Source: Colwellia sp. MB3u-45 (lineage in GTDB: Bacteria > Pseudomonadota > Gammaproteobacteria > Enterobacterales > Alteromonadaceae). Taken from it: a stretch of DNA of 64,000 nt. The DNA lies in contig NZ_JACGVC010000049.1 in NCBI RefSeq assembly GCF_014077005.1, forward strand, positions 434,001-498,000, written 5' to 3'. Shown here piece after piece: positions 43,175 to 61,273 of the stretch. Below the pieces are notes generated by a model. The model saw only the letters and a program-made list of their open reading frames with translations, searched no databases and was not told where the DNA came from. The position numbers were made by a program, and so were the translations under genes. Numbering within the stretch: the stretch's first letter is position 1; each line of letters opens with the position of its first letter.

Positions 43175-44521
43175 ATGAAATTGACTTTACCTTATAACTC
43201 AAAAATGAATTCAACAGATTTTATTTATGGTGTTGCTACTGCCTCATTCCAAATCGAGGGCGGTATCGAGCAACGATTGCCCTGTATCTGGGATACATTT
43301 TGCTCTTTAGAAAACAGTATTGTCGATGGTTCAAATGGAGACGTTGCCTGTGATCATTACCATAAATGGCCTCAAGACATCGAAATGATTGAATCTCTCG
43401 GCGTTGATGCTTATCGTTTATCTATTTCGTGGGGAAGAGTTGTTAATGAAGATGGCAGTATCAATGCCACAGGTGTAGCATTTTATATTGCCTTGTTAGA
43501 TAAATTAGTAGAGAAAAACATTAAATCCTTTGTTACGCTTTATCACTGGGATTTACCTCAACACCTTGAAGATAAAGGTGGTTGGTTAAACAGAGAAACG
43601 GCTTACGAATTTCAAAAATATACCGAAATAGTGATTAAAGCATTTGGCAATAGAGTGCATTCGTATGCTACGTTAAATGAGCCTTTTTGTAGCGCTTATT
43701 TAGGCTATGAAATTGGCATTCATGCACCAGGTATTAAAGGTAAAGAGTTTGGCAAAAAGGCAGCTCATCATTTATTACTTGCTCATGGTTTAGCGATGAA
43801 ATCTCTTAAAAAATTAAGCCCGAACACACTTAATGGCATTGTACTTAATTTTACCCCTGGCTACCCTGCTTCTCAAAATCCAGCTGATATAGCAGCAGCT
43901 CAGTTTGCCGATGAATATTTTAATCAATGGTATATAAAACCTATTTTTGATGCTCAATATCCAGAAATACTTGCGCAACTGCCATTATCACAACATCCTG
44001 ATATTATTGCAGGTGATATGGACATCATTTCAGAGTCTGTTGATTTTTTAGGTATTAATTATTATACACGTGCAATATATCAAGCTGATGAAAATGAAAT
44101 ATTCACTCAAATTTCCCTTAAAGATGTTGCTTTAACCGATATGGGTTGGGAGATATATCCATCAGGGTTTTCTGATTTATTGATTTCTTTAGATGCCAAA
44201 TACACCTTACCTCCTATTTATATTACTGAAAATGGCGCTGCAATGCCTGACAGTATCAAAGATGGCAAAGTAGAAGATGCTCACCGAGTCGCTTATTACC
44301 AAAGCCACCTTAACGCGGTAAATACAGCCATTGAATCAGGTGTCGACATCAGAGGTTACTTTGCTTGGAGTTTAATGGATAATTTTGAATGGGCTGAAGG
44401 CTATTTAAAAAGGTTTGGTATTGTCTACGTCGATTATCAAAGCCAAGAAAGAACTATAAAAGCCAGTGGTTATGCCTATCGTGATTTAATCCATCAACGA
44501 AAAAGCAATAACAACAAATAG
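43175..44521 (+). CDS. GH1 beta-glucosidase
   Basis: A 448-residue family GH1 enzyme that removes glucose from beta-linked oligosaccharides. FIYGVATASFQIEGG starts the barrel. The acid/base is Glu169 in TLNEPF and the nucleophile is Glu352 in ITENG. WSLMDNFEWAEGY is the usual sugar-binding C-terminal motif. There is no signal peptide, so it acts in the cytoplasm on imported di- or oligosaccharides. It is followed by an MFS carrier on the same strand, and it has its own LacI-type operator. A start at MNSTDF, ten codons in, is possible. Confidence 0.93.
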   Translation: MKLTLPYNSKMNSTDFIYGVATASFQIEGGIEQRLPCIWDTFCSLENSIVDGSNGDVACDHYHKWPQDIEMIESLGVDAYRLSISWGRVVNEDGSINATGVAFYIALLDKLVEKNIKSFVTLYHWDLPQHLEDKGGWLNRETAYEFQKYTEIVIKAFGNRVHSYATLNEPFCSAYLGYEIGIHAPGIKGKEFGKKAAHHLLLAHGLAMKSLKKLSPNTLNGIVLNFTPGYPASQNPADIAAAQFADEYFNQWYIKPIFDAQYPEILAQLPLSQHPDIIAGDMDIISESVDFLGINYYTRAIYQADENEIFTQISLKDVALTDMGWEIYPSGFSDLLISLDAKYTLPPIYITENGAAMPDSIKDGKVEDAHRVAYYQSHLNAVNTAIESGVDIRGYFAWSLMDNFEWAEGYLKRFGIVYVDYQSQERTIKASGYAYRDLIHQRKSNNNK

Positions 44522-44701: not shown

Positions 44702-46030
44702 ATGCTAAAAATTAAAGAAAAAATAGCTTACGGTTTGGGCGACACAGCCAGTAATATCATCTTCCAAACCGTGATGATGTTTTTACTTATTTATTATACT
44801 GATGTGGTTGGTCTTTCTCCCGCACTTGTTGGCACTCTTTTTCTTGTTGTTAGAATATTTGATGCAATCACTGATCCCTTAATGGGAGCAATGGCTGATA
44901 GAACGAAAACTAAGTGGGGACAATTCAGACCTTATTTATTATGGCTAGCCCTGCCTTTTTGCCTGATCAGTATTTTAGCTTTTACCACCTTTGATTTATC
45001 TGAAAATGGTAAAATCGTTTATGCATTTGCTACTTATACTTTATTAATGATCGCTTATACCGCGATAAACATTCCTTATTCAGCGCTGGGTGGTGTACTT
45101 ACCGCTGACCCTGAAGAACGCGTATCAGTACAATCATATCGATTTGTTTTTGGTATGTTAGGTGGTCTAATCGTTGCAGCAGGTACTATGCCATTAGTAG
45201 AGTGGTTTGGTGCTGGAGATAAAGCACAAGGCTATCAGTACACTATGATAGCCATGAGCTTGCTAGGCTTAATGCTTTTTCTGCTTTGTTTTGCCGGTAC
45301 TAAAGAAAGAGTTAGCCCGCCAAAAGATCAAAACTCAAGCTTTAAAGAAGATTTGTCTGCCTTATGGAAAAATGATCAATGGCGAATTCTTTGCTTAGCT
45401 GGATTATTGTTATTAAGTGGCCAAGTACTGCGCGGCACACTGGCGGTTTATTATGTGAAATATTATTTAGGTCGCGCTGACCTGATCACCTTGTTTATGA
45501 CTTTAGGGATGATAGGTAGCATTCTAGGTTGTGCACTGGCGTTACCACTATCTAAAAAAGTATGTAAAATTAAAGCCTATATTTGTTTACAATCAATCGC
45601 TGCTTTTATTTGTATTATCAGTTATTTTGTTGGCAGTGAACAAACAGTTATGGCCTTCACTTTATTCTTTCTTTGGAGTTTTTTCCTGCAGATGGCCACC
45701 CCCTTACTTTGGGCTAAAATGGCTGATACCATCGATTATGGACACTGGAAAACTGGCGTTAGGATAACGGGTATGGTTTATTCAGCTATCGTTTTTTTCA
45801 TCAAACTTGGCGTTGCCATTGGCGGTGCATTAGCGGGTTGGTTATTGGCCTATTATGGCTACCAAGCTGATATAGAACAAAGCACTAACACGCAACAAGG
45901 CATATTAGCTGCTTTCACTATTTTTCCTGCTGTAGGGTCGATATTAGTTGCCTGGGTAATGCGCTGGTACATACTTGATGCAAAAAAAGTGCAATTTATT
46001 CACCAAGCTTTAAAAAACACATCAAGTTAG
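44702..46030 (+). CDS. MFS sugar:cation symporter (GPH/MelB type)
   Basis: A 442-residue inner-membrane carrier with about 12 membrane helices. LKIKEKIAYGLGDTASNIIFQ and RIFDAITDPLMGAMADRTKTKWGQFRPYLLW (in pieces) are hallmarks of the glycoside-pentoside-hexuronide family. It lies 180 bp after the GH1 gene, so it probably imports the beta-glucoside or disaccharide that GH1 cleaves. The exact sugar is not visible from sequence. Confidence 0.92.
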   Translation: MLKIKEKIAYGLGDTASNIIFQTVMMFLLIYYTDVVGLSPALVGTLFLVVRIFDAITDPLMGAMADRTKTKWGQFRPYLLWLALPFCLISILAFTTFDLSENGKIVYAFATYTLLMIAYTAINIPYSALGGVLTADPEERVSVQSYRFVFGMLGGLIVAAGTMPLVEWFGAGDKAQGYQYTMIAMSLLGLMLFLLCFAGTKERVSPPKDQNSSFKEDLSALWKNDQWRILCLAGLLLLSGQVLRGTLAVYYVKYYLGRADLITLFMTLGMIGSILGCALALPLSKKVCKIKAYICLQSIAAFICIISYFVGSEQTVMAFTLFFLWSFFLQMATPLLWAKMADTIDYGHWKTGVRITGMVYSAIVFFIKLGVAIGGALAGWLLAYYGYQADIEQSTNTQQGILAAFTIFPAVGSILVAWVMRWYILDAKKVQFIHQALKNTSS

Positions 46031-46338: not shown

Positions 46339-49317
46339 ATGAATTCAACTTTTAAAAAAACTCAACTTGCTACAAGTTTATCTATAATTTTAGGCGTAAC
46401 GGCAATAACGCCGGTTTTTGCTGCTGAAGAAGTTGCAAAAGATAAAACTGAAGTGATCGAAGTTACGGGTATCCGTAGCAGTATGGTTAAATCGATGGAT
46501 ATGAAGCGCTCAGCTAGTGGTATCGTTGATGCTATTAACGCTGAAGACATTGGTAAATTTCCCGACAGTAACTTAGCTGAATCGTTACAACGTATTACGG
46601 GTATTTCTATAGAAAGATCAAACGGCGAAGGCAGTAAAGTAACCGCTCGTGGTTTTGGTCCTGAACGTAATTTAGTCACGCTTAATGGTCGTCAACTTCC
46701 GACTACTACCGGTGATCGCTCGTTTGATTTTTCCAATCTTGCCGCTGAAGGTGTTAGCGGTGTTCAGGTATACAAAACCTCAAAAGCAGATGTTCCTACC
46801 GGTGGTATTGGGGCAACAATTAATATTACTACCCATCGCCCTCTTGATAATCCAGGCGAAAAAGCGGTATTTAGCGCTGAAGCATTAAAAGATCAAACAA
46901 CCAAAGAAGGCTCTACTACGCCACAATTTTCGGGCTTGTATTCAAATACATTTGATGATGGTAAATTTGGTATTTCGATATCAGGTAGTTATTCAGAGCG
47001 TGAAAGTGGTAGTCAGCAAGGTAAAACAGCTTTCTGGCGAAGCTTTTCAGGTGTACAGGATAATGACTGGGGTGGCTCTAATGCGGCATGGGGTGGTGTA
47101 GGAAGAGATGATAGCCAAACTAATCGCCCAGGCGACGATGACATTTATTCAGTACCACAAAATACTATTTACAAGTTTGAAGAACAACAGCGTAAAAGAA
47201 GTAATGCGCAATTAGTGCTGCAATATAGTCCAACAGATGCTATTACTGCGACACTTGATTACACCTATGTAAAAAAAGAAAATGACACACAATTTAACGA
47301 CATTTCAGTATGGTATAACTTTGGACCAAGCGAAAATATTTGGACAGATGGCCCAATAAGTTCTCCTGCTGTTTATTCTGAAACTTTTGATCCAAATAAC
47401 CCTACCGATCTTGCAATGGGTGGTGGTGACTTTAGTGTTAAAGATGAAACTAAATCGCTTGGTTTAAATTTAGAATGGCAAGTAAACAACAGCTTAAGTC
47501 TAAGATTAGATCATCACGACTCGTCAGCTCAAAGTGATCCAAATAGTCCTTTAGGTTCAAGCAACACTATCGGTATGGCTGCTTTTGTTCGTACAGCTTC
47601 TGCAACTGACTATACAGGTGATATTCCAGTACTATCTGTTACTGGCGGTAATGCAGTTCAAGCCTCAGACATGATTGTAACCGGTAGTTCTTTTATCAAC
47701 ATCAAAAACCGTGCTGATATTACGCAAACTCAACTGCATGGTAATTATATTCTTGAAGAAGCCGGTAGCATAGATTTTGGTCTATCATTGACCAGTTCTG
47801 AAAGCCGACATAGAGAAAAGAATGTTCAACGAAATAACTGGGGTGGTGAAGGTACTGCTGGTTCATTCGATGAGTCATTATTTCCACGTAGAAGCATTCA
47901 AGACCAATTTGACAATTTAAGCGGTGGTAACTTTGAAGGTTATAATGGCGATGTCGAAATTTTAGAAAATTATTTCGCCTTTGATTTTAATGGCGTTAGA
48001 GAACGTGCTGTTGATGTATTAGGTGTTCAAGCATCTGCTTTAGGTGATTGTGGTAATTCATTTTGTCCATCAAGCGACTATGCTTCACAAACTGACCAAT
48101 ATACTAAAGAAGAAATGACTTCAGTTTACTTCCAATATAACTACGAAGGTGAAATTGGTACTATGCCATTTGATGTGCATTTTGGTATCCGTTATGAAGA
48201 AACAGATGTTACTTCAACGTCTTCAGTGCCTGAATTTACTAATGAACCTCGTTGGGAAGGTACCAGTGAAGTATCACTATTAAGCTCTGGTAATGTTATC
48301 TACGGTACACAAGAAGCAAGCTATGATCATTTGCTACCCAGCATTAACTTCAATTTAGAAGTTACTGATGATGTTATTCTTCGCGCAGCTTACAGTGAAA
48401 CTATTGGCCGCCCTCAATATAACAATATGATTGGTGGCACACTGCTAAACCCTGGTGCTCGTGTAGGTGGCGGTATAGGTTCTACCGGTAACGCTGGTTT
48501 ATTACCACTTGAATCTGAAAACATCGATTTATCAGCAGAATGGTACTACGGCGAAGGTAGTTACGTTTCATTAGGTTATTTCACTAAAGACGTAACAAAC
48601 GATATATTAGTAGACACGGTAAATACTACCACGGGTATTGTTAACCCTGCAGACGGTCCTTATACAGAAGAAGCACGAGCAGCTGTTGGCAATGATGGTT
48701 TAGCACAACGTCAATACATCTTTGATACCTATGCGGCAACAGATCCAGAACACGTCTTCATGGAAGGTGGCAACATTATTATTTTAGGTAATGCTGAAAC
48801 TGATAACTTGATGAACTTCGGTATTAGTACTCCGATAAACTTAACTGAAAAAACCGGTTATGACGGTATTGAGTTTGCCGTACAACACTTATTTGGTAAT
48901 AGCGGTTTTGGTACTATTGTTAATTACACTAAAACAAATACTGACAATGAACATGATGACTTTGACATTGGCGCTCAAGCGGCTGAATTAGGTATTAGTG
49001 ATTCGGCTAACGTTGTTGGCTTCTACGAAAAAGATGGTTTATCAATTCGTATTGCTTATAACTGGCGTGATAAATTCTTAGTAGCGCTTGTACAAGATGG
49101 TCAAGCAGGTCCTGGCCCACGCTATATTGAAGAATATGCTCAAGTTGATATGACCGTAAGTTACGATGTACCACAAGCAGAAGGATTAACTGTTTTCTTC
49201 AATGCCATCAACATTACTGAAGAAAATGCCCGCACTAGTGGACGTGACGAACGACAAGTATTAGATTCTATTCAACAAGGTGCACGTTACTCTTTAGGTG
49301 CTCGCTATACATTCTAA
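46339..49317 (+). CDS. TonB-dependent outer-membrane receptor
   Basis: A 992-residue receptor for energised import across the outer membrane. I start it at 46339 (MNSTFKKTQL), with GGGAGA just upstream; the frame is open to 46210, inside the promoter. The signal peptide is cut near VFA-AEE (28/29). A TonB-box-like EVIEVTGI is followed by the plug (about 50-200; GKFPDSNLAESLQRITGI and RGFGPERNLVTLNGRQLP in pieces). The barrel ends in the terminal aromatic, ARYTF. It resembles the large Xanthomonas/Caulobacter-type carbohydrate receptors. With neighbouring GH16 and GH3 enzymes, the cargo is probably a beta-glucan oligosaccharide. Confidence 0.93.
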   Translation: MNSTFKKTQLATSLSIILGVTAITPVFAAEEVAKDKTEVIEVTGIRSSMVKSMDMKRSASGIVDAINAEDIGKFPDSNLAESLQRITGISIERSNGEGSKVTARGFGPERNLVTLNGRQLPTTTGDRSFDFSNLAAEGVSGVQVYKTSKADVPTGGIGATINITTHRPLDNPGEKAVFSAEALKDQTTKEGSTTPQFSGLYSNTFDDGKFGISISGSYSERESGSQQGKTAFWRSFSGVQDNDWGGSNAAWGGVGRDDSQTNRPGDDDIYSVPQNTIYKFEEQQRKRSNAQLVLQYSPTDAITATLDYTYVKKENDTQFNDISVWYNFGPSENIWTDGPISSPAVYSETFDPNNPTDLAMGGGDFSVKDETKSLGLNLEWQVNNSLSLRLDHHDSSAQSDPNSPLGSSNTIGMAAFVRTASATDYTGDIPVLSVTGGNAVQASDMIVTGSSFINIKNRADITQTQLHGNYILEEAGSIDFGLSLTSSESRHREKNVQRNNWGGEGTAGSFDESLFPRRSIQDQFDNLSGGNFEGYNGDVEILENYFAFDFNGVRERAVDVLGVQASALGDCGNSFCPSSDYASQTDQYTKEEMTSVYFQYNYEGEIGTMPFDVHFGIRYEETDVTSTSSVPEFTNEPRWEGTSEVSLLSSGNVIYGTQEASYDHLLPSINFNLEVTDDVILRAAYSETIGRPQYNNMIGGTLLNPGARVGGGIGSTGNAGLLPLESENIDLSAEWYYGEGSYVSLGYFTKDVTNDILVDTVNTTTGIVNPADGPYTEEARAAVGNDGLAQRQYIFDTYAATDPEHVFMEGGNIIILGNAETDNLMNFGISTPINLTEKTGYDGIEFAVQHLFGNSGFGTIVNYTKTNTDNEHDDFDIGAQAAELGISDSANVVGFYEKDGLSIRIAYNWRDKFLVALVQDGQAGPGPRYIEEYAQVDMTVSYDVPQAEGLTVFFNAINITEENARTSGRDERQVLDSIQQGARYSLGARYTF

Positions 49318-49350
49318 CAGCCCTTTATTGAGCTGATAAGAAAGTAAATT

Positions 49351-49403
49351 AAAGGCCGTATAAATTATTCGATAATGTATTTGATATTTTATGCGGCCTC
49401 TTT
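49351..49403 (+). terminator. Possible terminator after the TonB receptor
   Basis: AAAGGCCGTATA can pair with the AT-rich/GCGGCCT arm near 49390-49399, enclosing a small ATTAT/ATAAT hairpin, and CTTTATAT follows. It lies 34 bp past the stop and may separate the receptor from the halogenase cassette. Confidence 0.5.
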
Positions 49404-49591
49404 ATATATGATGTAAAAATAGAATTATTACAAAAAACATCGGTCTTAAACAAATATTTTCAAGCGCTTAAGTAGGTTAGATACCCAGTTAGTCGTTAAC
49501 TAGCAGTAGATCGCCTAAAGAAAGCACGATATAGTTTTAGTTGAAATATGTCCTTATGTTTTTTGTAAATATTTTAATTTTAAGTAAATTT

Positions 49592-51145
49592 ATGAATAAA
49601 CCATTAAAGAAAATTGTGATTGTTGGTGGTGGCTCGGCTGGCTGGTTGACCGCTGGAATAATTGCGGCAGAACACGCCAGTGCTCAAGATTCGGGTATCG
49701 AAATCACCCTAGTTGAATCTGCAGATGTTGCCACTATGGGGGTTGGCGAAGGTACTTGGCCATCAATGCGTACTACCTTGAAAAAAATGGGAATTTCAGA
49801 AACCGAATTTCTCATCGAGTGTGATGCTAGCTTTAAACAAGGGTCAAAATTTACTCATTGGATTACCAATACTCATGAAGGCTATTATCATCCTTTTACT
49901 TTGCCACATGGCTTTAATGACATAAACCTATCATCGTATTGGCAACCCTTTCGAGATAAAATCAGTTTTGCCGATGCCGTTTGTCAACAAAGTCATTTAG
50001 GCGCTCATGGTCTAGCCCCTAAACAAATCACCAGCGCTGAATATTCATTTGCAGCCAATTATGGTTATCATTTAGATTCAGTTAAATTTGGTCGGTTTTT
50101 ACGCAAACACTGCACTGAAAAATTGCATGTTAAACACATTGTTGATCATGTCAGTAAGATCAACTCAGCAAAGAATGAAGATATAGCCTCAATTACCACC
50201 ACAAAACATGGTGATATTTCTGCTGATTTATTTATTGACTGTACCGGCTCAGCATCGATTTTATTAGCTAAACACTACAAGATTCCTTTCATCAGTAAAA
50301 AACATATTTTATTTAATGATTCCGCTCTAGCGGTTCATGTTCCTCATGAAAATGAAGATAGCCCTATTGCTTCTTTTACTTCATCAACCGCGCAAACGGC
50401 CGGTTGGATTTGGGATATAGGCTTACCTTCACGCCGTGGTGTCGGTTACACCTACTCCAGTGCTCATATTAGCGATACAAAAGCTGAGGAAGAGTTAATA
50501 GAGTACATTACTCCTCTTATTGGTAAAAAGTCTGCCAACGCTGCCATGATGCGTAAAATAGCACTAAACCCTGGACACAGAGAAAAGTTCTGGCATAAAA
50601 ATTGTGTCGCTGTAGGAATGTCTGCTGGTTTTATTGAGCCGCTAGAAGCTTCAGCATTAGTGTTAATAGAGCTCTCAGCTAAAATGATCAGTGAACAATT
50701 ACCTGTAAACCGTCAAGCAATGGACATTGTGGCTAAGCGCTTTAATAGCAAGTTTTTACATCGTTGGGACAACATCATTGATTTCCTCAAATTGCATTAC
50801 GTGTTAAGTAAAAGAACGGATTCAGATTATTGGGGCGATAATAAAAATGCAATGCATATCCCAGAGAGCTTACGAGAACAGTTAGCATTATGGCAATATC
50901 AAGCGCCATATAAATACGATGCAATTCATACGGAAGAAATGTTTCCGCCAGCAAGTTTTCAATTCGTTTTATATGGTATGGGCTTTGTTACCCAAGCTCC
51001 CCATAAAAAAAGAACAGACCAATCAGCAAAAGCAGAGGCTTTGTTCAATGAAAATGTACAACGAACAAAACAACTATTATCTGCCTTGCCAACAAATCGT
51101 GAATTAATTAATAAAATTAAAAAATATGGCTTACCAAAAATATAG
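49592..51145 (+). CDS. Flavin-dependent tryptophan-halogenase-like protein 1
   Basis: A 517-residue protein of the tryptophan halogenase (Trp_halogenase) family; I prefer the start at 49592 (MNKPLKKIV) over the TTG at 49541. The FAD-binding motif is GGGSAGWLTA. The conserved active-site lysine is Lys82 (SFKQGSKF). The WxWxIP halogenase signature reads WIWDIG from Trp272, with the proline displaced by two residues. Family members chlorinate or brominate aromatic substrates with FADH2, but those found in polysaccharide loci have no proven substrate. It heads a same-strand run of six genes after the receptor. Confidence 0.87.
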   Translation: MNKPLKKIVIVGGGSAGWLTAGIIAAEHASAQDSGIEITLVESADVATMGVGEGTWPSMRTTLKKMGISETEFLIECDASFKQGSKFTHWITNTHEGYYHPFTLPHGFNDINLSSYWQPFRDKISFADAVCQQSHLGAHGLAPKQITSAEYSFAANYGYHLDSVKFGRFLRKHCTEKLHVKHIVDHVSKINSAKNEDIASITTTKHGDISADLFIDCTGSASILLAKHYKIPFISKKHILFNDSALAVHVPHENEDSPIASFTSSTAQTAGWIWDIGLPSRRGVGYTYSSAHISDTKAEEELIEYITPLIGKKSANAAMMRKIALNPGHREKFWHKNCVAVGMSAGFIEPLEASALVLIELSAKMISEQLPVNRQAMDIVAKRFNSKFLHRWDNIIDFLKLHYVLSKRTDSDYWGDNKNAMHIPESLREQLALWQYQAPYKYDAIHTEEMFPPASFQFVLYGMGFVTQAPHKKRTDQSAKAEALFNENVQRTKQLLSALPTNRELINKIKKYGLPKI

Positions 51146-51199
51146 CGATACCAACGCTTAAAAAATCTAGCCACACATCAGTAAACAACATAATTTGGA

Positions 51200-51934
51200 A
51201 TGAAAATGGCAAATCACGTATTACTAAATAGTACCGATCATCAAAATTTAAAAGTTATTACCGAACGTGAAGAAAAATACGGCGACAATGTTTGGTTTAC
51301 CCTAACCTTCCCCACTGAATTTAGAAGCGTTCAGGCCTATTATCCGATATTTTTTAATAAAGACTCAAGTACAGGTCAATTTTATGCGGTTGCGCTATTT
51401 GGTTTTCAAGAAAATGAAAACTTATTTTTATCAAAAGATGGCTGGCAGACACCTTACATTCCATTAAGCGTAGCAAGACAGCCGTTCTTAATTGGTGTCC
51501 AAAAAGTTGTAGAAGACGGCGAAGAAAAAGAACAAAGAATGTTACATATTGATCTTGAACACCCAAGAGTGAGCCAAGACAAAGGTGAAGCACTGTTTTT
51601 AGAGTTTGGTGGCAATACCCCTTACTTAGATAATGCAGCAGATATACTCGAAACCATGCATCATGGCCTTATCGACAGTAAGTTATTTATGGAATTACTG
51701 ATTGAACATGAGTTGTTAGAGCCTTTCTCGCTAGATATGACATTAAACGATAAAAGCCAAAACCAAATGGTTGGTTTTTATACTATTAATGAAGATAAAT
51801 TAAAAACGCTAACCCCGGATACTTTGGCCAAACTGCATCAGTTGGGATATTTACAAGCCATTTATATGGCGATTGCTTCGCAATCAAATGTTCGAGCGTT
51901 AATGAATAAAAAAAATGAACAGTTGGGTTTGTAA
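51200..51934 (+). CDS. SapC family protein
   Basis: 244 residues with the SapC-type core: YYPIFFNKDSSTGQFYAVALFGFQENENLFL (in pieces), followed by YIPLSVARQPFLIG. SapC was named from a Campylobacter S-layer locus, but its role in TonB-receptor loci is unknown. There is no signal peptide, so it is cytoplasmic. GGA before the second ATG at 51206 suggests that as an alternative start. It sits between the halogenase-like gene and the cupin-like gene with gaps of 54 and 33 bp. Confidence 0.88.
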   Translation: MKMANHVLLNSTDHQNLKVITEREEKYGDNVWFTLTFPTEFRSVQAYYPIFFNKDSSTGQFYAVALFGFQENENLFLSKDGWQTPYIPLSVARQPFLIGVQKVVEDGEEKEQRMLHIDLEHPRVSQDKGEALFLEFGGNTPYLDNAADILETMHHGLIDSKLFMELLIEHELLEPFSLDMTLNDKSQNQMVGFYTINEDKLKTLTPDTLAKLHQLGYLQAIYMAIASQSNVRALMNKKNEQLGL

Positions 51935-51967
51935 AACCATTAATACAGAGCTAAATAAGGTGATTAG

Positions 51968-52984
51968 GTGCTAACAATTAATCATAAAGTAAAAGAAATT
52001 CACCATTGCCAACCCGGCAATATTCCAGAATTTGTCTTGTCTTCTACTGAGCCCATGATTTTGAAAAATTTTGGCAGTAATTGGCCCGCAGTTATTGCGG
52101 GTAAAACCTCGCCACAATCAGCTGCTGATTACTTAAGAAAGTTTTATACCAATGCGCCTATAACTGCCTATTATGGTGAGTCTAAAAATAATGGCCGTGT
52201 TTTTTACAATGAAAACATGACAGGTTTTAATTTTAACAGTTCAAAAGCCAACCTGAATCAAGTGCTTGATAAGTTACTTGAGCATGTCAATGATCCGCAA
52301 CCACCGACAATGTATGTGGGTTCGACTGAAATTAACCATTGCTTACCGGGCTATAATGAAGAAAACAATGCCTCCATCGACCATTTAAAGCCGTTAACCA
52401 GCATATGGTTAGGCAATAAAAGCAAAATAGCTGCACATTTTGATTTCCCTAATAATTTAGCTTGTTGTGTAGTGGGTAGTCGTAAATTTACTTTGTTCCC
52501 ACCAGAGCAGCTTGAAAATTTGTACGTTGGCCCGATGGAATTTTCCCCCGGTGGACAAGAAATTAGTTTAGTGGATTTTGACAACCCTGATTTTGTTAAG
52601 TATCCAAAGTTTAAACAAGCGTTAGCCTCGGCACAAGTTGCCGAATTGGAAGCTGGCGACGCCCTATTTTTACCTAGTATGTGGTGGCATCATGTTGAAA
52701 GTTTAACCGCGTTTAACGTGCTAGTAACCCATTGGTGGCGTGATAGCCCCGCATTTATGGGACGCCCTAACAATGCCCTTATGTTGGCAATGTTAAGCTT
52801 AAAAGACTTGCCTTTAGCTCAGCGAAAAGCATGGCAAGCGCAATTTAACTATTATATTTTTGAGCATGACCAAGAAGATTTCTCTCATATTCCTACCGCT
52901 GCTCAAGGGCGATTGTCAAAACCCCTTGATGAATTATTAGCGAAACAAATACGCGCAGATTTACTGAATAAATTAAAACGATAG
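51968..52984 (+). CDS. Cupin-like (JmjC/cupin_8) protein
   Basis: A 338-residue protein starting at GTG with AAGGTGAT upstream. The double-stranded beta-helix has an Fe(II)-type facial triad: His157 and Asp159 in AHFDFP, and His242 in WWHHVES. The segment GSRKFTLFPPEQ is typical of the JmjC-like hydroxylase group that uses 2-oxoglutarate and often modifies proteins. Its substrate is unknown. Its place between two halogenase-like genes suggests a shared target. Confidence 0.87.
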   Translation: MLTINHKVKEIHHCQPGNIPEFVLSSTEPMILKNFGSNWPAVIAGKTSPQSAADYLRKFYTNAPITAYYGESKNNGRVFYNENMTGFNFNSSKANLNQVLDKLLEHVNDPQPPTMYVGSTEINHCLPGYNEENNASIDHLKPLTSIWLGNKSKIAAHFDFPNNLACCVVGSRKFTLFPPEQLENLYVGPMEFSPGGQEISLVDFDNPDFVKYPKFKQALASAQVAELEAGDALFLPSMWWHHVESLTAFNVLVTHWWRDSPAFMGRPNNALMLAMLSLKDLPLAQRKAWQAQFNYYIFEHDQEDFSHIPTAAQGRLSKPLDELLAKQIRADLLNKLKR

Positions 52985-53035
52985 TAACTAAGTACAACAA
53001 ATCATCCTACTAAAGTTAATTAATAAGGTTTTATT

Positions 53036-54532
53036 TTGAAAACACAAAACAAAAAAATTAAAAAAGTCGTTATTGCTGGTGGTGGTACTGCGGGTTGGAT
53101 GACAGCAGCAGCACTCTCAAAATTATTAGGTAAAGGCATAGAGGTTGTTTTAATAGAGTCAGACGAAATCCCTACGGTTGGCGTTGGTGAAGCAACGATT
53201 CCTACCTTACATATTTTTCACCAATTATTAGGCATTAATGAACAAGAGTTTATGGCAGCAACCAATGCCACCTTTAAGCTGGGCATTTCTTTTGAAAACT
53301 GGCGCGACATAAGTAAAGATTATATTCATTCCTTTGGTTTTCTAGGTAAAGGTTGTTGGGCGGCTGGTTTTCAACATTTTTGGCTAAAAGGCCGTGCAAA
53401 AGGCATTGTTTCTGAGATTGGTGATTATGTTCCTGAACATTTGGGCGCAAGAGCCGGAAAGTTTGCCGTTTTAGCAAATCAAGAGTTAAACCATGCTTAT
53501 CACCTTGATGCTGGGCTCTATGCTAAGTTTTTAAGAAGTCTTGCTGAAAAACATGGCACAACACGCATTGAAGGTAAAATATCCCAGGTTAATCTAGATA
53601 ACGAATCCGGCTATATAGACTCAATTACTTTAGCATCAGGTAAAATTGTTGAGGGGGATCTCTTCATCGACTGTACCGGCTTTAAAGGCATGTTAATCGA
53701 AGGAGCACTCAATACAGGCTTTGAAGATTGGAGTCATATCTTACCTTGTGACAGTGCTATCGCAGTGCAAACTAAAATGGTCAGAAAACCGGTTCCATAT
53801 ACCCGCGCTATCGCCAGGGATTCTGGTTGGCAATGGCAAATACCGCTGCAAAACCGCACCGGTAATGGTTTAGTCTTTTGTAGTAAATACATGACAGATG
53901 AAGAAGCTAAGCAAACACTTTTAGCGAATGTTCAAGGTGAGTTGCTCAACGAACCTCGTGTGATCAAATATAAAACCGGCACACGCCGTAAACATTGGAA
54001 TAAAAACTGTGTTGCTATTGGCTTATCTTCTGGTTTTATCGAACCATTGGAGTCAACCGGTATACATTTATTTCAAAAGTCCATTGTGCGATTAATGCAA
54101 ATGTTTCCTTCTCAGGGTATTAATCAAGCTGATGTTGATGAATTTAATAGCCAAACTAAAACTGAAGTCGACAACATTAAAGATTTTATTATTCTGCATT
54201 ATCATTTAACAGAGCGCACAGATTCACCATTTTGGCGCTATTGCAAAAATATGGAAATTCCAGATACCTTAAAACATCGTATGTCGTTGTTTAAGGAAAG
54301 TGGCCAGGTATTTAAAAAAGCAGAAGACTTATTCGGTGAAACCTCTTGGATACAAGTCATGATGGGACAAGGGTTAATGCCTGAGCAATATCATCCTATT
54401 GTAGATTTGATGAGCGATGAAGAATTAACGAGCTTTTTAAATAATATAAAATCAGCCGTAAAACGCAAAGTGGATAACTGGCCTGACAATAACGATTTTA
54501 TCAATCATTATTGTAAATCCACTACGATGTAA
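53036..54532 (+). CDS. Flavin-dependent tryptophan-halogenase-like protein 2
   Basis: A 498-residue paralogue of the protein at 49592, starting at TTG with an AAGG ribosome-binding site. GGGTAGWMTA binds FAD. The active-site lysine is Lys81 (TFKLGISF) and the signature WQWQIP (Trp265-Pro270) is complete, so this copy has all the visible halogenase residues. No separate flavin reductase is encoded nearby; FADH2 would have to come from elsewhere. Confidence 0.9.
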   Translation: MKTQNKKIKKVVIAGGGTAGWMTAAALSKLLGKGIEVVLIESDEIPTVGVGEATIPTLHIFHQLLGINEQEFMAATNATFKLGISFENWRDISKDYIHSFGFLGKGCWAAGFQHFWLKGRAKGIVSEIGDYVPEHLGARAGKFAVLANQELNHAYHLDAGLYAKFLRSLAEKHGTTRIEGKISQVNLDNESGYIDSITLASGKIVEGDLFIDCTGFKGMLIEGALNTGFEDWSHILPCDSAIAVQTKMVRKPVPYTRAIARDSGWQWQIPLQNRTGNGLVFCSKYMTDEEAKQTLLANVQGELLNEPRVIKYKTGTRRKHWNKNCVAIGLSSGFIEPLESTGIHLFQKSIVRLMQMFPSQGINQADVDEFNSQTKTEVDNIKDFIILHYHLTERTDSPFWRYCKNMEIPDTLKHRMSLFKESGQVFKKAEDLFGETSWIQVMMGQGLMPEQYHPIVDLMSDEELTSFLNNIKSAVKRKVDNWPDNNDFINHYCKSTTM

Positions 54533-54606
54533 CGGATTGAAAAATAAAATATTCCGGCAGATCTTACTGCGCTGCCGATTAATTGTTCTATTTTATGATA
54601 TAAAAA

Positions 54607-55320
54607 ATGAATGACTTAGCTATACAAATAAATCGCGATATTAAGCTTAAAATAATGACCGTCGGTGTTGATAAAACACCGGTGATCGTCATTGATGACT
54701 TTGCTATTGATACCCATAACATTATCGCTCACGCTTGTGCTCATGCTGAATTTAAAGCACTTGATAACACTTATTATCCAGGTATAAGAGCACCTTTACC
54801 TAAAAACTATGTCATCAATGTACTACAAGCCATTTATCAAGATATTTGCCATATCTATAACATTCCTCAGCACTTACAATTAAAACCTCAAGAAGCTTAT
54901 TTTTCTTTGATCACTACAGCCGCAACCGAGTTAAACTTACTGCAGCGCATGCCTCATTTTGACACCAGTAGGCCATTTTACTTTGCTATTTTGCATTACC
55001 TCAATAATGATAAGCACGGAAATACAGGCTTATTTCGTCACAAACCTACGGGGTTAGACAAAATTGAAACGCATAATGTGGAATATTATTTAACTTCGGC
55101 TCAACGCTTTATTGATAATAATGGCGAGTCTGCTCAGGAATATTGTATTCGTTCAAATGAGCATTTTGAGTTATATCAACAAATTGAATATAAACCCAAT
55201 CGTTTAGTTATTTATCCTGGACAATTACTTCATTCGATCATTATTTCCCCTGAAAATGATATAGACCCAAATCCCGAAACAGGTCGGCTCACGGCAAATG
55301 TTTTTATAGAATTTACATAA
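54607..55320 (+). CDS. DUF6445-like protein of unknown function
   Basis: 237 residues, with no signal peptide. N-terminal PVIVIDDF is followed by a YYPGIRAP motif. A central MPHFDT (His117, Asp119) and FYFAILHYLN, then GTGLFRHKPTG-like residues (NTGLFRHKPTG), and a late RLVIYPGQLLHS histidine resemble a 2-oxoglutarate/Fe(II) dioxygenase core. The family name is from memory and the enzymatic role is inference. It follows halogenase 2 by 74 bp and precedes the deacetylase by one base. Confidence 0.72.
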   Translation: MNDLAIQINRDIKLKIMTVGVDKTPVIVIDDFAIDTHNIIAHACAHAEFKALDNTYYPGIRAPLPKNYVINVLQAIYQDICHIYNIPQHLQLKPQEAYFSLITTAATELNLLQRMPHFDTSRPFYFAILHYLNNDKHGNTGLFRHKPTGLDKIETHNVEYYLTSAQRFIDNNGESAQEYCIRSNEHFELYQQIEYKPNRLVIYPGQLLHSIIISPENDIDPNPETGRLTANVFIEFT

Positions 55321-55321
55321 C

Positions 55322-56119
55322 TTGAAAACAAAAACGATAACGATAACGATATTATCAATATTCATTTGCTCAAACGCAGCAGCTAAGACAATTTTCGAAT
55401 GGCCTAATCATGCTAAAGCAGCGATTAGTCTGGCCTATGATGATGCATTAAATAGTCAGTTAGATCATGCCTTGCCTGCGCTAAATAAGCTCAATTTAAA
55501 AGCTTCATTCTATTTAACCTTGAGTTCACCAACGGTTAGCAAACGCTTAGAAGAGTGGCGTCACATAGCTAAACAGGGCCATGAATTAGGTAATCATTCA
55601 ATAAATCATGCCTGTCATGGCTCGCTACCTGGCAGAGATTGGGTACTAACCTACAATGATCTTGATAAAAAACAATTTAATGAAATTATTCAAGAGATTA
55701 ATACCGCTAATACATTTTTAAAAGCTATTGATGGTGAAACGCTAAGAACCTTTACTGTACCTTGTGCCGATCAGTTGGTTGAGCATAAGAATTACGTGCA
55801 TGCGCTTCATGATGCTTTTGTCGGTATTAAATCTCATGTCGGTAAAATCCCAAAAAGTCGCAGTTCAATCAATGTGATGGATGCTGCAGTTTGGTCGCCA
55901 TCGGGGAACTCGGGGACCGAGTTAATAGCTTATGCAAAGCAAGCGGCTTTCTACGGTACTATCGCTAATTTTACTTTTCACGGCGTTGGCGGTGATCATC
56001 TGCCTGTTTCTATAAAGGCTCATCAGGAGCTACTAGATTTCTTAGCAAAAAATAAAGATATTTACTGGGTTGATACCTATCGTAACATTAGTTTATACAT
56101 CAAAAAAAATGCTAACTAG
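55322..56119 (+). CDS. Secreted polysaccharide deacetylase (NodB type)
   Basis: 265 residues starting at TTG; a signal peptide (about 1-21) ends near NAAA. NodB-type motifs are YDD (Asp40-Asp41) and HSINH (His92, His96), giving the Asp-His-His metal site. The family removes N- or O-acetyl groups from sugars. It is translationally coupled to the gene before it. Its presence suggests that the target glucan or a modified glycan carries acyl groups, which is inference. Confidence 0.85.
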   Translation: MKTKTITITILSIFICSNAAAKTIFEWPNHAKAAISLAYDDALNSQLDHALPALNKLNLKASFYLTLSSPTVSKRLEEWRHIAKQGHELGNHSINHACHGSLPGRDWVLTYNDLDKKQFNEIIQEINTANTFLKAIDGETLRTFTVPCADQLVEHKNYVHALHDAFVGIKSHVGKIPKSRSSINVMDAAVWSPSGNSGTELIAYAKQAAFYGTIANFTFHGVGGDHLPVSIKAHQELLDFLAKNKDIYWVDTYRNISLYIKKNAN

Positions 56120-56174: not shown

Positions 56175-57293
56175 TTACAGCGCCGGTGCTTGCTTACCAC
56201 CCACTAAAGCGGCGTCATCACCGATTGTTGCGCAGCCAGCACCTGTGATAGGTGACACTGAGCATTCATACACTCGGACATAATCTATTTCTAATGATTG
56301 TGGAAATACACTGTCATTAATGCCTTTGTCGTTAACCGAAGCGGACCAATTCCCGCCAACAGCAAAATTTAATAATAAATGAAATTTTTGATCAAAAGGT
56401 GCACCACCCGCACCGTTTACCAATAAACCCTCATCATTCATATATTGGCTATACCAGCCGGTATCACGCTGTGTAGCAAAATGAATATCATCAACATACC
56501 AACGAATTTCCCCTGCTTGCCATTCAACAGCGTATTCGTGGAAACCATCTGCTGGGTTTACACCATCAGGTAAGTTAAATCCTTTACCCGAATAAACATT
56601 CTCAGGCCAGGCACGGCCATAATGAAGCGTGCCATGCACACGTGATTCTTCTTCTCCTGAGCTCGCACCCGCTTCATCTGATTGTGTTTTTAAGTTCACC
56701 GCTTCCATAATATCAATTTCACCCGAGCCAGCCCATCCACCATAAGCCCAGTCAGTAGGCAGCATCCAAATGGCTGGCCAAGTGCCTTGTCCTTGCGGTA
56801 ATTTAGCGCTAATTTCAAAGCGTCCAAAAGTCCAGTCACCTTTGTTTTTGCTGCGTAAACGTGCTGATGTATAAGGTAGAGTGCGGGTATTCATAGCGTT
56901 GTAATTAGTATCATCGTCATGTGCCGCAGGACCGGTAAAATTTTCTTTTAATGCCACTATTTTCAAAATACCTTGTTCAATAAAAGCATTATCTTCTCGG
57001 TCGGTATAACATTGTTGTTCATCATTACCCCCACCAAAACAATTGACCTCAAAACTCCATTTGTTTAAATCAATATTGTTATCATTAAATTCATCCTGCC
57101 AAATTAACTGCCATTGATTATTCTCTACAGAAGCAGTTGTAGGGTCTTTACTCTCTTCACTCGCATGATCAGAAGATATATCTGTAGCTGGCGTACTTGA
57201 TATATTAGTCGTGTTCGTGTTGTTACCCGATCCGCCACCACATCCAAGTAAAGTCATTGAACAGGCTATGAGTAATAATGTTAAATGCTGCAT
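56175..57293 (-). CDS. GH16 endo-beta-glucanase (laminarinase-like) lipoprotein
   Basis: A 372-residue family GH16 enzyme. A lipoprotein signal has the lipobox LLGC with Cys18, followed by a Ser/Thr/Asn-rich linker. The catalytic motif GEIDIME gives Glu192, Asp194 and Glu197, which in laminarinases are nucleophile, helper and acid/base. WQDEFND starts the fold and FHLLLNFAVGGNW lines the cleft. It should cut beta-1,3- or mixed-linkage glucan at the cell surface. It is the third gene of the MFS-GH3-GH16 operon. Confidence 0.92.
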   Translation of the reverse strand: MQHLTLLLIACSMTLLGCGGGSGNNTNTTNISSTPATDISSDHASEESKDPTTASVENNQWQLIWQDEFNDNNIDLNKWSFEVNCFGGGNDEQQCYTDREDNAFIEQGILKIVALKENFTGPAAHDDDTNYNAMNTRTLPYTSARLRSKNKGDWTFGRFEISAKLPQGQGTWPAIWMLPTDWAYGGWAGSGEIDIMEAVNLKTQSDEAGASSGEEESRVHGTLHYGRAWPENVYSGKGFNLPDGVNPADGFHEYAVEWQAGEIRWYVDDIHFATQRDTGWYSQYMNDEGLLVNGAGGAPFDQKFHLLLNFAVGGNWSASVNDKGINDSVFPQSLEIDYVRVYECSVSPITGAGCATIGDDAALVGGKQAPAL

Positions 57294-57398: not shown

Positions 57399-59993
57399 TT
57401 AATCACAGCTCATTGTTGCTTTATCAATACCTTGTGGCGTTAAGTTTATATCAGCGAAGCTTAATGAAACTTTGCCATTAGTCGACAAGTTAAATGGCGA
57501 CATAATTTTGGAGAAATCTGTACCTGCTTTTTTAAAGCAAGCTAAGTCTATCGTTACGTTATGCCATTCATTTAAACTCTGGTTAATTAACAATGAGGTG
57601 ATATCAAGTGAACCTTTGCAATCCCCTTCACAACTCATAGCTAAATTAATCGGTGCTACTGGTGTAGTTTCTAAACGCACGCTAAAACTTAATACCGAGT
57701 CAGCCTCGCTATATGCCCGCAAATCTTCCGGAAAGTTACTAAAGATATTGACACTGGCCAGTTCACTGCCATCAAAGGTTATTGTTCTAGCATCTTCTTG
57801 TACCACTTTGTCCATAGTTCTTAAGGTAATAGCCCCTAATGACTGCGTATTTGAAGTAACAGGAGATGACTGTTCACCTGATTGCAACGCAACACTCCAT
57901 GGCTGCTTAATCGCTAATTCAAATATTTTAAAAGTGGCTAACTCATCAGAAGATATTTTAGAGACTTCACTTAACTGATCAGACAATAGGGTCATTTTTT
58001 TATTATCTTGCTGCTGATAGGTTAAACCAAAACCATAAGGTAATAGGGGTTGATAGTTTTCATCAAATCTATTAACAGAGGTTTGATCGGCACTAGCAGG
58101 CCATGAATATGAAAGCTTACCCTTAAAGTCATTACGTAAACTGCTATCCGCTTTACTAAATAAAACGTCAGCGACACCATTGCCTTCTGAACCTGGCAAC
58201 CAAGCAGCAACAAAAGCATTTGACGCATTAAGTTCCGCATTTACCCACATTGGTCGTCCGCTAATAAAAACAGAAACAACAGGTATCCCTTGTGCTTTTA
58301 AACGTTTGAGTAAAGCTAAATCGGTTTTATTACCGCGTTGATACTCAAGGTTATCTAAGTCACCATTACCCTCGGCATAAGGTTCCTCACCAAAAACAAC
58401 AATAGCAACATCTGGCTTTTCAGTGAACTCACCTGTAGGGCTTAATTGCACTTTACCGCCAGCCGCATTAACAACTTGCTCTATACCGTCATAAATCGAA
58501 GACCCACCCGGAAAATCAGCGTTAGTGTTACCTGTACCTTGCCAAGTAATACTCCACCCTCCTGACTGCTTGCCAATATTGTCAGCGCCATCTCCTGCAA
58601 CTAATACATTTGCACTCGGCGTTAAGGGTAATAAATTAGCTTTATTTTTAAGCAAAACTAAAGATTCACGTACGGCTTGACGAGCAACTAAACGATGCTC
58701 TGCTGAGCCAATTAAGTCAGTTTTTCCTGACAATGGACGATTTTTTGGGCTGGGTTTAGTGAATAAACCTGCGCGTATTTTTACTCTTAAAATACGGCTA
58801 ACTGCATCATCTATTCTTGATAAGCTAATTTCACCATTGTTAACTTGTTTAATGGTATTTTCATACAAAGGTTTCCAAGCAGCTGTTGGCACCATATAGA
58901 TGTCTAAGCCCGCATTGACTGCTTGTGGACAGCTTTCATTAGTACAGCCTTTTACTTGGCCATGGCCGTTCCAGTCACCAACAACAAAGCCGTCAAAGCC
59001 CATACGATCTTTTAAAACATCGGTCATTAAATACTTGTTGCCATGCGTTTTAGCGCCATGCCAGCTATTGAATGATGCCATTACTGATTGCGCGCCAGCC
59101 GTTAAGCCACCAACATAACCTTGGGCATGATGTTTAAAAAGATCACTTTCGCTATCTAAGTTATCCCCTTGGTCATCACCACCTTTTGTGCCACCATCAC
59201 CAATAAAGTGTTTAACCGTACTGATAACGCGAGTGTCGCCTAAAAAGTCATCGCCTACAGCACCTTGTAGCCCTTTTACAATAGCGGCCGAATATAAGCC
59301 AACTATTTCAGGGTCTTCAGAATAACCTTCATAGGTTCTGCCCCAACGATCATCTCTAACAACGGCAACCGTAGGAGCAAACACCCAATCAATACCGGTT
59401 ACCATCACTTCTTTAGCCGTGATACTGGCGATATTTTCCATAAGTTCAGCATTATTTGCCGCGCCTAAGCCAATGTTATGTGGAAATAATGTTGCGCCAA
59501 TCACATTGTTATGACCATGTACTGCATCAGTACCCCACATAGTTGGAATATTTGTCCCATCTACTGAGTCATCGATTGATGCTTGATACAGAGATTCAGC
59601 CAATTTTATCCAATCAGCAGGTGTTGCGTGCTTATTATTATCAGGAAAAGCACCCCCACCATTTAAATATGAGCCAAAACCATATTTACGCATATCTTCA
59701 ACCGTAATGTCTCGGATTTCAGGTTGGATCATCTGGGCAACTTTTTGCTCTAACGTCATAGTTGCTAGAATTTTGGCAACTTTAGTTTCAACGTTACTGT
59801 CTTTTTTAACTTCAATATCAAGTACCGGCCAAATGGCTATATTGTTTTCGCCATAAGGGGCAACATCAACCTGAGCTATATCCGAGTTAGCGTTAGAGTT
59901 AGCGTTATCAGTACAAGCAAAAAGTGACATGGCGACAGCAATCCCCATGAAGGGTTTAGCAACGCTTTTAAGTGAATTTATTTGAATAAACAT
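57399..59993 (-). CDS. GH3 exo-beta-glucanase/beta-glucosidase lipoprotein
   Basis: An 864-residue GH3 enzyme. The signal peptide ends in LFAC with Cys27. The catalytic barrel contains GVFAPTVAVVRDDRWGRTYEGYSEDP-type residues (in pieces) and KHFIGDGGT. The nucleophile is Asp340 in VVGDWNGHG. After the alpha/beta sandwich a C-terminal galactose-binding-like region (about 690-864) resembles that of the marine exoglucanase ExoP. It would release glucose from beta-glucan oligosaccharides in the periplasm or on the surface. It starts 8 bp after the MFS gene. Confidence 0.93.
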   Translation of the reverse strand: MFIQINSLKSVAKPFMGIAVAMSLFACTDNANSNANSDIAQVDVAPYGENNIAIWPVLDIEVKKDSNVETKVAKILATMTLEQKVAQMIQPEIRDITVEDMRKYGFGSYLNGGGAFPDNNKHATPADWIKLAESLYQASIDDSVDGTNIPTMWGTDAVHGHNNVIGATLFPHNIGLGAANNAELMENIASITAKEVMVTGIDWVFAPTVAVVRDDRWGRTYEGYSEDPEIVGLYSAAIVKGLQGAVGDDFLGDTRVISTVKHFIGDGGTKGGDDQGDNLDSESDLFKHHAQGYVGGLTAGAQSVMASFNSWHGAKTHGNKYLMTDVLKDRMGFDGFVVGDWNGHGQVKGCTNESCPQAVNAGLDIYMVPTAAWKPLYENTIKQVNNGEISLSRIDDAVSRILRVKIRAGLFTKPSPKNRPLSGKTDLIGSAEHRLVARQAVRESLVLLKNKANLLPLTPSANVLVAGDGADNIGKQSGGWSITWQGTGNTNADFPGGSSIYDGIEQVVNAAGGKVQLSPTGEFTEKPDVAIVVFGEEPYAEGNGDLDNLEYQRGNKTDLALLKRLKAQGIPVVSVFISGRPMWVNAELNASNAFVAAWLPGSEGNGVADVLFSKADSSLRNDFKGKLSYSWPASADQTSVNRFDENYQPLLPYGFGLTYQQQDNKKMTLLSDQLSEVSKISSDELATFKIFELAIKQPWSVALQSGEQSSPVTSNTQSLGAITLRTMDKVVQEDARTITFDGSELASVNIFSNFPEDLRAYSEADSVLSFSVRLETTPVAPINLAMSCEGDCKGSLDITSLLINQSLNEWHNVTIDLACFKKAGTDFSKIMSPFNLSTNGKVSLSFADINLTPQGIDKATMSCD

Positions 59994-60001
59994 AACAATA
60001 T

Positions 60002-61273
60002 TTATACCTTTACTGATACAGGTTTACTACCTGACAAGCCATAATAAGCAATGAATACATAGCAAATAATGGGTAAGAAAAATGAGTTTTGTAGGCCAAT
60101 ACTGTCGGCCAAAACGCCTTGAATAAGTGGTAAAATAGCACCGCCAACAATCGCTAAACATAAAATACCTGAACCTTGGCTAGTATGCTGGCCTAGACCA
60201 TTAATGGCCAAACTAAAGATGGTAGGGAACATAATTGAATTACATAAACCTACTAACAGAATGGCCAACATCGCTATTTGACCAGATGCAAAGATAGTAA
60301 TAATAATAAATACTACTGCCATAAAAGCGTTGAAGGCTAATACTTTTCCTGCGGCTAATTTTTGCATAACCGCGGCACCAATAAATCGTCCCACCATTGC
60401 ACCGCCCCAATAATAGGCAATATATTTTGCGGCTTGGGATTCTTCTAAACCAGCAATGTTCGGATCATTAAAAAAGCTCACTAAGAAGCTGCCAATAGAA
60501 ACCTCAGCACCCACATAAACAAAAATACCAATGGCACCTAAAACTAAATGGCGATATTCCCAAGCGCTACCCGCTATCGGTTTTTCAGCCACTGACTCTT
60601 CAATATGTTCAATATGTTCAATGACAGGTAATTTTATATAAGAAAAAATAGCCGCAAGTATTAATAATAAACCAGCGAGTAATACATAAGGTAATTGCAC
60701 CGATTCTGCTTGTTGAGCAACCGACATCGACTCTGCTACTTGATCTAAGATCAAATAAGCACCAAAAAATGGCGCGACTGTGGTGCCAAGTGAATTAAAT
60801 GCCTGTGTCATCGTCAGACGTGAAGAGGCTGTTTCAGGATTGCCTAAAATACTGACATAAGGATTAGCTGACACCTGTAATATCGTAATACCACTGGCTA
60901 ATATAAATAGTGCCAATAAAAACACCGGGTAGCTGTGCATAGCTGCTGCTGGGTAAAAAGCAAAACAACCAATGGCAGCAACAATCAAACCAAGCACAAT
61001 GCCTTTTTGGAAACCTACTTTTTTAACTATTTTTCCTGCCGGAATAGAAACAAGAAAGTAAGCACTAAAAAAACAAAACTGTACCAGCATTGCTTGGCTA
61101 TAAGATAAATCGAAAATAGCTTTCAAATGAGGAATTAAAATATCATTTAAGCAAGTAATGAATCCCCACATAAAAAAGAGTGATGTTAATGATGTAAGTG
61201 CAAAGGTATAATTTTTGTTTTCAGTGTTTGATGAAAACCTATTCACATTTGATTGAATCGGTGTACTAGCCAT
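60002..61273 (-). CDS. MFS sugar transporter, FucP/GluP type
   Basis: A 423-residue inner-membrane carrier with 12 helices. [19 protein letters not shown] (in pieces) is characteristic of the fucose/glucose-galactose permease group, as is [37 protein letters not shown] (in pieces). With GH3 downstream, glucose or a small gluco-oligosaccharide is the likely cargo. First gene of the operon; its promoter carries the LacI-type operator. Confidence 0.93.

Follow-up and report, generated by a model that had tools for sequence, protein, structure and literature searches.

A 64,000-nt window of the 4.17-Mb genome of Colwellia sp. MB3u-45 contains a TonB-dependent receptor gene of the TIGR01782 (TonB-Xanth-Caul) type followed by a cassette of five core genes, which encode two predicted flavin-dependent halogenases (HAL1 and HAL2), a SapC family protein, a Cupin_8 protein and a DUF6445 protein. 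Comparative analysis showed that this cassette is a conserved unit that tracks one set of TIGR01782 receptor lineages, regardless of the sugar of the locus. The five proteins are proposed to act as a receptor-coupled system that would tailor the receptor precursor before its export, a reading given a probability of about 40% here.

Recurrence of the cassette beside TIGR01782 receptors

A preliminary description of the locus had claimed that such gene sets recur near TonB receptors, and the association proved stronger than claimed. It was quantified in 11 genomes, all carrying SapC (the genome of the window, nine from the same family and one from the same order), which together hold 57 halogenases, 90 receptors above the family cut-off and 33 SapC genes. 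Of these halogenases, 55 have a TIGR01782 receptor within 8 kb, against 2.6 expected from receptor density, and for 54 it is upstream on the same strand. The exceptions, with no receptor within 8 kb, are G441:C1:2220925 and G301:C5:1083807 (locus L136). SapC genes are near a receptor in 22 of 33 cases, near a halogenase in 22 of 33 and near neither in 10; conversely, 37 of the 90 receptors have a halogenase or SapC nearby. Within the genome of the window itself, all six strong halogenase matches adjoin a TIGR01782 receptor and four of seven such receptors have a halogenase (a seventh halogenase match, at 20.8 bits, was dropped).

The same link is found in another class of the phylum, where halogenases occur in nine of 14 genomes of one family. 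There, 25 of 29 halogenases have one of the 30 TIGR01782 receptors within 8 kb (0.67 expected), and four have none within that distance. Two of the nine genomes (G302 and G306) had originally been found via DUF6445; in the other seven, 11 of 13 halogenases are near a receptor. Several halogenases of this class are oriented divergently relative to the receptor, which indicates that the link is not a single frozen operon. In the genome-neighbourhood check proposed in the preliminary description, halogenases and TIGR01782 receptors thus co-occur beyond chance in two classes. Altogether, a TIGR01782 receptor stands no more than 8 kb from 80 of 86 halogenases in 20 halogenase-bearing genomes, 13 of them picked through SapC or DUF6445, and the receptor link may therefore be the main job of the halogenase family in these bacteria. 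In wider genome samples, SapC is carried by 27 of 185 at the level of the class and by 35 of 148 at that of the order, and DUF6445 by 16 of 299 at that of the phylum.

Gene order was examined in 123 mapped neighbourhoods, the majority selected through SapC or DUF6445. Halogenases longer than 420 aa were sorted into subfamilies h1 (54 proteins, including HAL1) and h2 (42, including HAL2) and five small subfamilies (10 proteins in total). The gene directly after the receptor belongs to the cassette in 57 of 71 cases (h1 in 36, SapC in 15, h2 in 5 and h4 in 1). Similarly, h1 is followed by SapC in 40 of 54 cases, Cupin_8 is preceded by SapC in 28 of 33 and followed by h2 in 27 of 33, and DUF6445 is preceded by h2 in 14 of 33; 12 DUF6445 genes are alone in their gene run. 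The full order receptor-h1-SapC-Cupin_8-h2-DUF6445 occurs in nine loci and receptor-h1-SapC in 13. This arrangement suggests two working pairs, HAL1 with SapC and Cupin_8 with HAL2.

Pairwise distances between cassette proteins follow those between their receptors, with r of 0.80 for h1 (47 loci), 0.86 for SapC (48), 0.85 for Cupin_8 (24), 0.90 for h2 (29) and 0.88 for DUF6445 (15); each correlation was reached by 0 of 2000 permutations. Among paralogues of the same genome, r is 0.60 for h1 (28 pairs), 0.78 for SapC (29) and 0.80 for h2 (7). In a FastTree phylogeny of 58 linked and 31 unlinked receptors (unlinked meaning no halogenase or SapC within 5 kb), the linkage label requires 9 changes against 25.8 when shuffled, a difference to which near-copies contribute. 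All 25 Cupin_8-linked receptors fall in one clade of 27, every member of which is linked. The sugar enzymes vary: six of ten neighbour proteins scanned belong to carbohydrate families (GH20, GH10, GH3, GH36 and, twice, an agarase-type binding domain), and of the other four, one is a further TonB receptor, one a sodium symporter and two lack a match.

The gap between the receptor and HAL1 holds a terminator-like hairpin (49353..49399, + strand), identified by folding and from the gaps of relatives. It folds at -20.8 kcal/mol (z -4.74), and the same GGCC stem is present in loci L008, L009 and L010, with shorter loops in L009 and L010. A single rule was applied to receptor gaps and controls (perfect stem of 6-9 pairs with at least four G/C, loop of 3-40, T-rich tail); it misses the copy in L008. 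Under this rule a hairpin is found in 44 of 57 receptor-cassette gaps and in 1 of 58 gaps inside cassettes. Restricted to gaps of 60-310 nt, the counts are 41 of 50 versus 74 of 341 for the remaining gaps between same-strand genes (Fisher p 1.2e-16), and shuffled receptor gaps yield 1.1 of 56 on average. A separate terminator scan limited to loops of at most 8 listed 3 sites for the region, compared with 8.4 in shuffled sequence, and the 49353-49399 hairpin was not among them. Receptor gaps leading to other genes number only four, three of them with a hairpin, so the hairpin is not assignable to the cassette as opposed to these receptors generally. The hairpin would let the receptor be made in quantity and the enzymes sparingly. 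Such an output suits enzymes that act on the receptor, and likewise any operon with an abundant first product.

Several mapped loci depart from this layout. In the genome of the window, L021:6127-15371 holds a receptor and then two halogenases with a GMC oxidoreductase, and L145:13746-19721 has a row of four h2 halogenases beside a divergent receptor, DUF6445 and Cupin_8. At L068:2042-17921 the cassette is accompanied by GH16, a phenol hydroxylase of the HpaB type, a carbamoyltransferase, a TPR protein and, below receptor-profile detection, a TonB receptor. Genes for an extracytoplasmic function (ECF) sigma factor and a FecR-like protein stand beside receptor, SapC and DUF6445 in L019:8450-17103, L134, L136 and L139. 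HAL1 is present in three of these four loci, the receptor has a long N-terminus in L019, L134 and L139, and L136 has no receptor within its 20 kb. In these four loci the cassette may be under cell-surface signalling.

The Colwellia locus and the predicted chemistry of its products

The receptor and six same-strand genes of the preliminary description, at 46339-56119, were confirmed in coordinates and families with Pfam and NCBIfam. Seven open frames run on the + strand from the receptor through a deacetylase, and the final gene stops at 56119. The receptor (46339..49317) starts at ATG 46339, the open-reading-frame listing opening at an upstream TTG (46210), and scores 84.1 bits for the barrel and 63 bits for the plug (Pfam) and 621.5 bits for TIGR01782. 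It is followed by HAL1 (49592..51145; Trp_halogenase, 385.3 bits for the frame 49541-51145), SapC (51200..51934; 241.8 bits), the Cupin_8/JmjC protein (51968..52984; 234.9 bits), HAL2 (53036..54532; Trp_halogenase, 633.9 bits) and the DUF6445 protein (54607..55320). The last, previously called "DUF6445-like", is a true member of that family (228.7 bits). By eye, without a predictor, signal-peptide-like N-termini were seen in the receptor and the deacetylase and no signal peptide in the five core proteins, which probably sit in the cytoplasm. The nearest named locus that turned up, also from a Colwellia, has a SapC that is 94% identical.

The polysaccharide deacetylase (55322..56119, + strand; Polysacc_deac_1, 56.9 bits) is an accessory gene. 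It is present in 4 of the 123 mapped neighbourhoods, has a signal-peptide-like N-terminus and is gone from the closest relative's locus (L008), and it is therefore counted with the glycan locus and not with the cassette. The beta-glucan surroundings reported earlier also hold. Upstream lie GH1 (43175-44521) and an MFS_2 sugar transporter (44702-46030), both on the + strand; downstream, on the - strand, are GH16 (56175-57293), GH3 (57399-59993) and a gluP-type MFS (60002-61273), with a LacI regulator beyond. Elsewhere in the window, a 478-aa open frame (17439-18875, - strand) has no Pfam match at E 1e-5.

The closest structural matches of HAL2 are Xcc4156 (6y1w, 626.6 bits) and BrvH (6frl, 462.5 bits), with 9luq also among its nearest solved structures. 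Aligned to PrnA (K79/E346), HAL2 shows the flavin-dependent halogenase motifs, namely GxGxxG, the catalytic Lys and Glu, and WxWxIP. These positions are conserved across the 42 h2 proteins (K81 0.98, E339 0.98, W265 1.00, W267 0.98, I269 0.95 and P270 0.98). HAL1 is 33% identical to HAL2, and its nearest solved structure is 2pyx (636 bits). In the 54 h1 proteins the flavin motif is present and K99 and E369 (numbered from 49541) are both conserved at 1.00; the WxWxIP site of HAL1 reads WxWDIG, and most h1 proteins have Gly, not Pro, at the last place.

The Cupin_8 protein resembles FIH, a protein hydroxylase, with 70.6 bits over residues 154-262, and its HxD...H metal triad (H157, D159, H241) is invariant in 33 of 33 members. 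In DUF6445, the residues H117, D119, H209 and R227 are invariant in 31 of 31 and form an HxD...H...R pattern, which is that of Fe(II)/2-oxoglutarate oxygenases. Weak matches to 2OG-FeII_Oxy_3 (3 of 31 proteins, best E 0.0022) and 2OG-FeII_Oxy_5 (1 of 31, best E 0.017) were also obtained. A profile search returned no solved relative of DUF6445, and its structural model, built from 4 sequences, has a mean predicted local distance difference test score (pLDDT) of 34.6. DUF6445 is a probable Fe(II)/2-oxoglutarate oxygenase, as judged from its conserved residues. The oxidative modification system envisaged in the preliminary description stands as a recurring enzyme set with conserved catalytic residues; the deacetylase counted in it falls outside the core.

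Sequence comparison linked SapC to no solved structure, and the SapC model (6 sequences) has a mean pLDDT of 51.4. A relationship to the halogenase WelO5 was rejected, as only 1 of 61 members matched, at E 0.018, which was taken as chance. Among 106 SapC genes, 59 are found by halogenases, 12 by giant frames of at least 1500 aa and 4 by receptor or other cassette genes only. Giant frames were found beside only 2 of 976 control genes from the same loci. Examples include a TPS domain, ShlB-type partners, a TolC-like protein and N-terminal starts that we take to be LEPRxLL-like. These results only partly support a general role of SapC as a surface-protein factor. This second setting, giant secreted-protein genes with SapC and no halogenases, was seen at L054, L055, L057-L059 and L061-L064, and further at L074, L077, L081 and L088, some with a TPS domain, ShlB or TolC-like partners.

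Proposed receptor tailoring and alternative readings

In the proposed mechanism, both halogenases would run on FADH2 from general cellular flavin reductases. Together with the FIH-like hydroxylase and the DUF6445 oxygenase, they would modify the receptor precursor on its side chains while it is still unfolded in the cytoplasm, SapC recognising or presenting that precursor. The tailored receptor would then pass through Sec export to outer-membrane assembly, with the hairpin keeping receptor output high and enzyme output low. The modification might affect how the receptor binds its ligand, how stable it is, or how phages or bacteriocins recognise it. The simplest target common to all the enzymes would be the receptor chain that has yet to be exported, given that they are probably located in the cytoplasm and keep to one protein lineage, that Cupin_8 resembles a protein hydroxylase, and that HAL2 is close to open-site halogenases whose authors suggested that they may accept peptides. 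Furthermore, the proximity of halogenases to receptors, the near-fixed order, the distances that follow the receptor, the clustering of linked receptors on the tree, the hairpin and the varying sugar enzymes all argue for receptor tailoring, as does the second setting of SapC beside giant secreted proteins (12 of 106 versus 2 of 976).

The preliminary description had named the receptor, a secreted peptide or the glycan as possible targets. The receptor is the best candidate of the three, with no residue tied to the cassette. The glycan is unlikely because the glycosidase partners vary by locus while the receptor lineage stays, and because such halogenases work on aromatic rings. For the secreted peptide, the receptor-HAL1 gap offered nothing in favour, since no conserved small frame was seen there in four related loci; other gaps were not searched.

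Several results weigh against receptor tailoring. The distance correlations and the clustering of linked receptors would likewise result from plain joint inheritance. Among the 11 genomes, 53 of the 90 receptors have no nearby halogenase or SapC, so the cassette is dispensable for TIGR01782 receptors in general. At L068 the cassette has no adjoining TIGR01782-type receptor, another TonB receptor lying 3.4 kb off. SapC is without an assigned fold, a Foldseek search with its model returning nothing at E 0.001 or better, and 31 of the 106 SapC genes stand in mixed neighbourhoods. We also know of no precedent for such chemistry on an unfolded Sec substrate. Finally, no receptor residue was found to track the cassette once phylogeny was considered, in a test that had no power.

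This residue scan used an alignment of the 58 linked and 31 of 53 unlinked receptors, and 12 receptors from mapped loci that fit neither rule were excluded. Among the unlinked, L237 (a receptor seen in L157) has DUF6445 beside it, and L194 stops near a contig end. Receptor residue differences follow clades, leaving three independent pairs for Cupin_8 and eight for any link; the absence of a tracking residue is attributed to too few independent events. Position 737 was rejected as a signature: it is aromatic in 25 of 25 Cupin_8-linked receptors, and also in 14 of 27 h1/SapC-linked and 10 of 31 unlinked ones.

The main rival is that the enzymes act on an aromatic ligand imported by the receptor, phenolic or indolic groups borne by algal or plant glycans being halogenated and hydroxylated, once taken up, in a first step of breakdown or detoxification. 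This would account for both the receptor link and the cytoplasmic enzymes. It is also consistent with the HpaB-type phenol hydroxylase in the L068 neighbourhood and with the in vitro bromination of free indole and its derivatives by relatives (excerpts of PMC5945002 and PMC7336383). However, the cassette stays constant while the sugar partners differ between loci, no ring-cleavage or aromatic-degradation set was seen to recur in the cassette across the mapped loci (as judged by gene sizes and the families scanned), and halogenation is an odd first breakdown step. This explanation is considered unlikely, if the strongest of the alternatives.

Halogenases are usual in natural-product pathways. 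The cassette could accordingly produce a small halogenated molecule, either a signal or an antimicrobial, starting from some general precursor such as indole, on which BrvH and the Xcc enzymes act (same excerpts), with production induced during feeding. Its lack of assembly-line or scaffold genes and the tight receptor tie, which would be left unexplained, make this rather improbable. The enzymes could instead act on a different exported protein or peptide whose gene lies elsewhere, the receptor being merely co-regulated, as the occurrence of SapC beside giant secreted proteins and other genes without halogenases might suggest; with the receptor as the one constant partner and no conserved small frame in the gap, this is quite improbable. 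Mere hitchhiking with carbohydrate loci, without joint function, fits the mobility of such loci and the 53 of 90 receptors lacking both families, yet the kept catalytic residues, the near-fixed order and the recurrence in two classes, partly in divergent orientation, make it very improbable.

If receptor tailoring holds, the cassette may tentatively be regarded as a dedicated cytoplasmic halogenating and hydroxylating machine for outer-membrane TonB receptors, which would be a new type of protein modification in bacteria and the native role of Xcc4156/BrvH-type enzymes. Outer-membrane nutrient uptake would then gain a layer of chemistry overlooked by proteomics that does not search for halogen mass shifts. 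The system would be categorically new only if receptor modification is shown. The cassette narrows the choice to a few partners for co-expression and one protein for mass spectrometry.

Comparison with known systems

The nearest characterised enzymes, Xcc4156 and BrvH, share with HAL2 the catalytic Lys and Glu and the WxWxIP motif. Unlike HAL2, which belongs to a receptor cassette, they were studied singly; the BrvH text (PMC5945002) contains neither TonB nor SapC, and the Xcc4156 text (PMC7336383) does not contain TonB. Excerpts of both reports describe open sites and the rejection of free tryptophan by these BrvH/Xcc relatives, and their authors suggested larger or peptide substrates. In 2020, the native substrates of the Xcc4156 group were stated to be unknown (excerpt of PMC7336383). 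The best match of HAL1, the solved 'tryptophan halogenase' structure 2pyx, resembles it in sequence.

For 2pyx itself, we know of no assigned function. A model for the possible action of HAL1 and HAL2 is the lanthipeptide halogenase MibH, which modifies tryptophan inside a peptide (excerpt of PMC5945002). Its sequence similarity to HAL2 is low, its structure 5uao being among the weakest of the matches listed for HAL2, and a MibH-type cluster for a ribosomally synthesised and post-translationally modified peptide (RiPP) has a precursor peptide gene; the receptor-HAL1 gap of four loci, the place searched, showed none that is conserved. The Cupin_8 protein shares the metal triad of the FIH/JmjC/Cupin_8 hydroxylases; here it is a bacterial protein in a receptor cassette.

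The locus as a whole agrees with TonB-receptor carbohydrate utilisation loci (Blanvillain et al. 2007, PMC1790865), since a receptor, glycosidases, a transporter and a regulator are all present. The main text of that paper mentions none of halogenase, SapC, pass1 or cupin. A search of titles and abstract beginnings in the openly licensed literature found no paper on this gene set, which argues only weakly for its absence. The occurrence of halogenase and SapC genes next to TonB receptors has been noticed by annotators before. The set of cassette and receptor is assembled from parts, and in a type of locus, that are already known.

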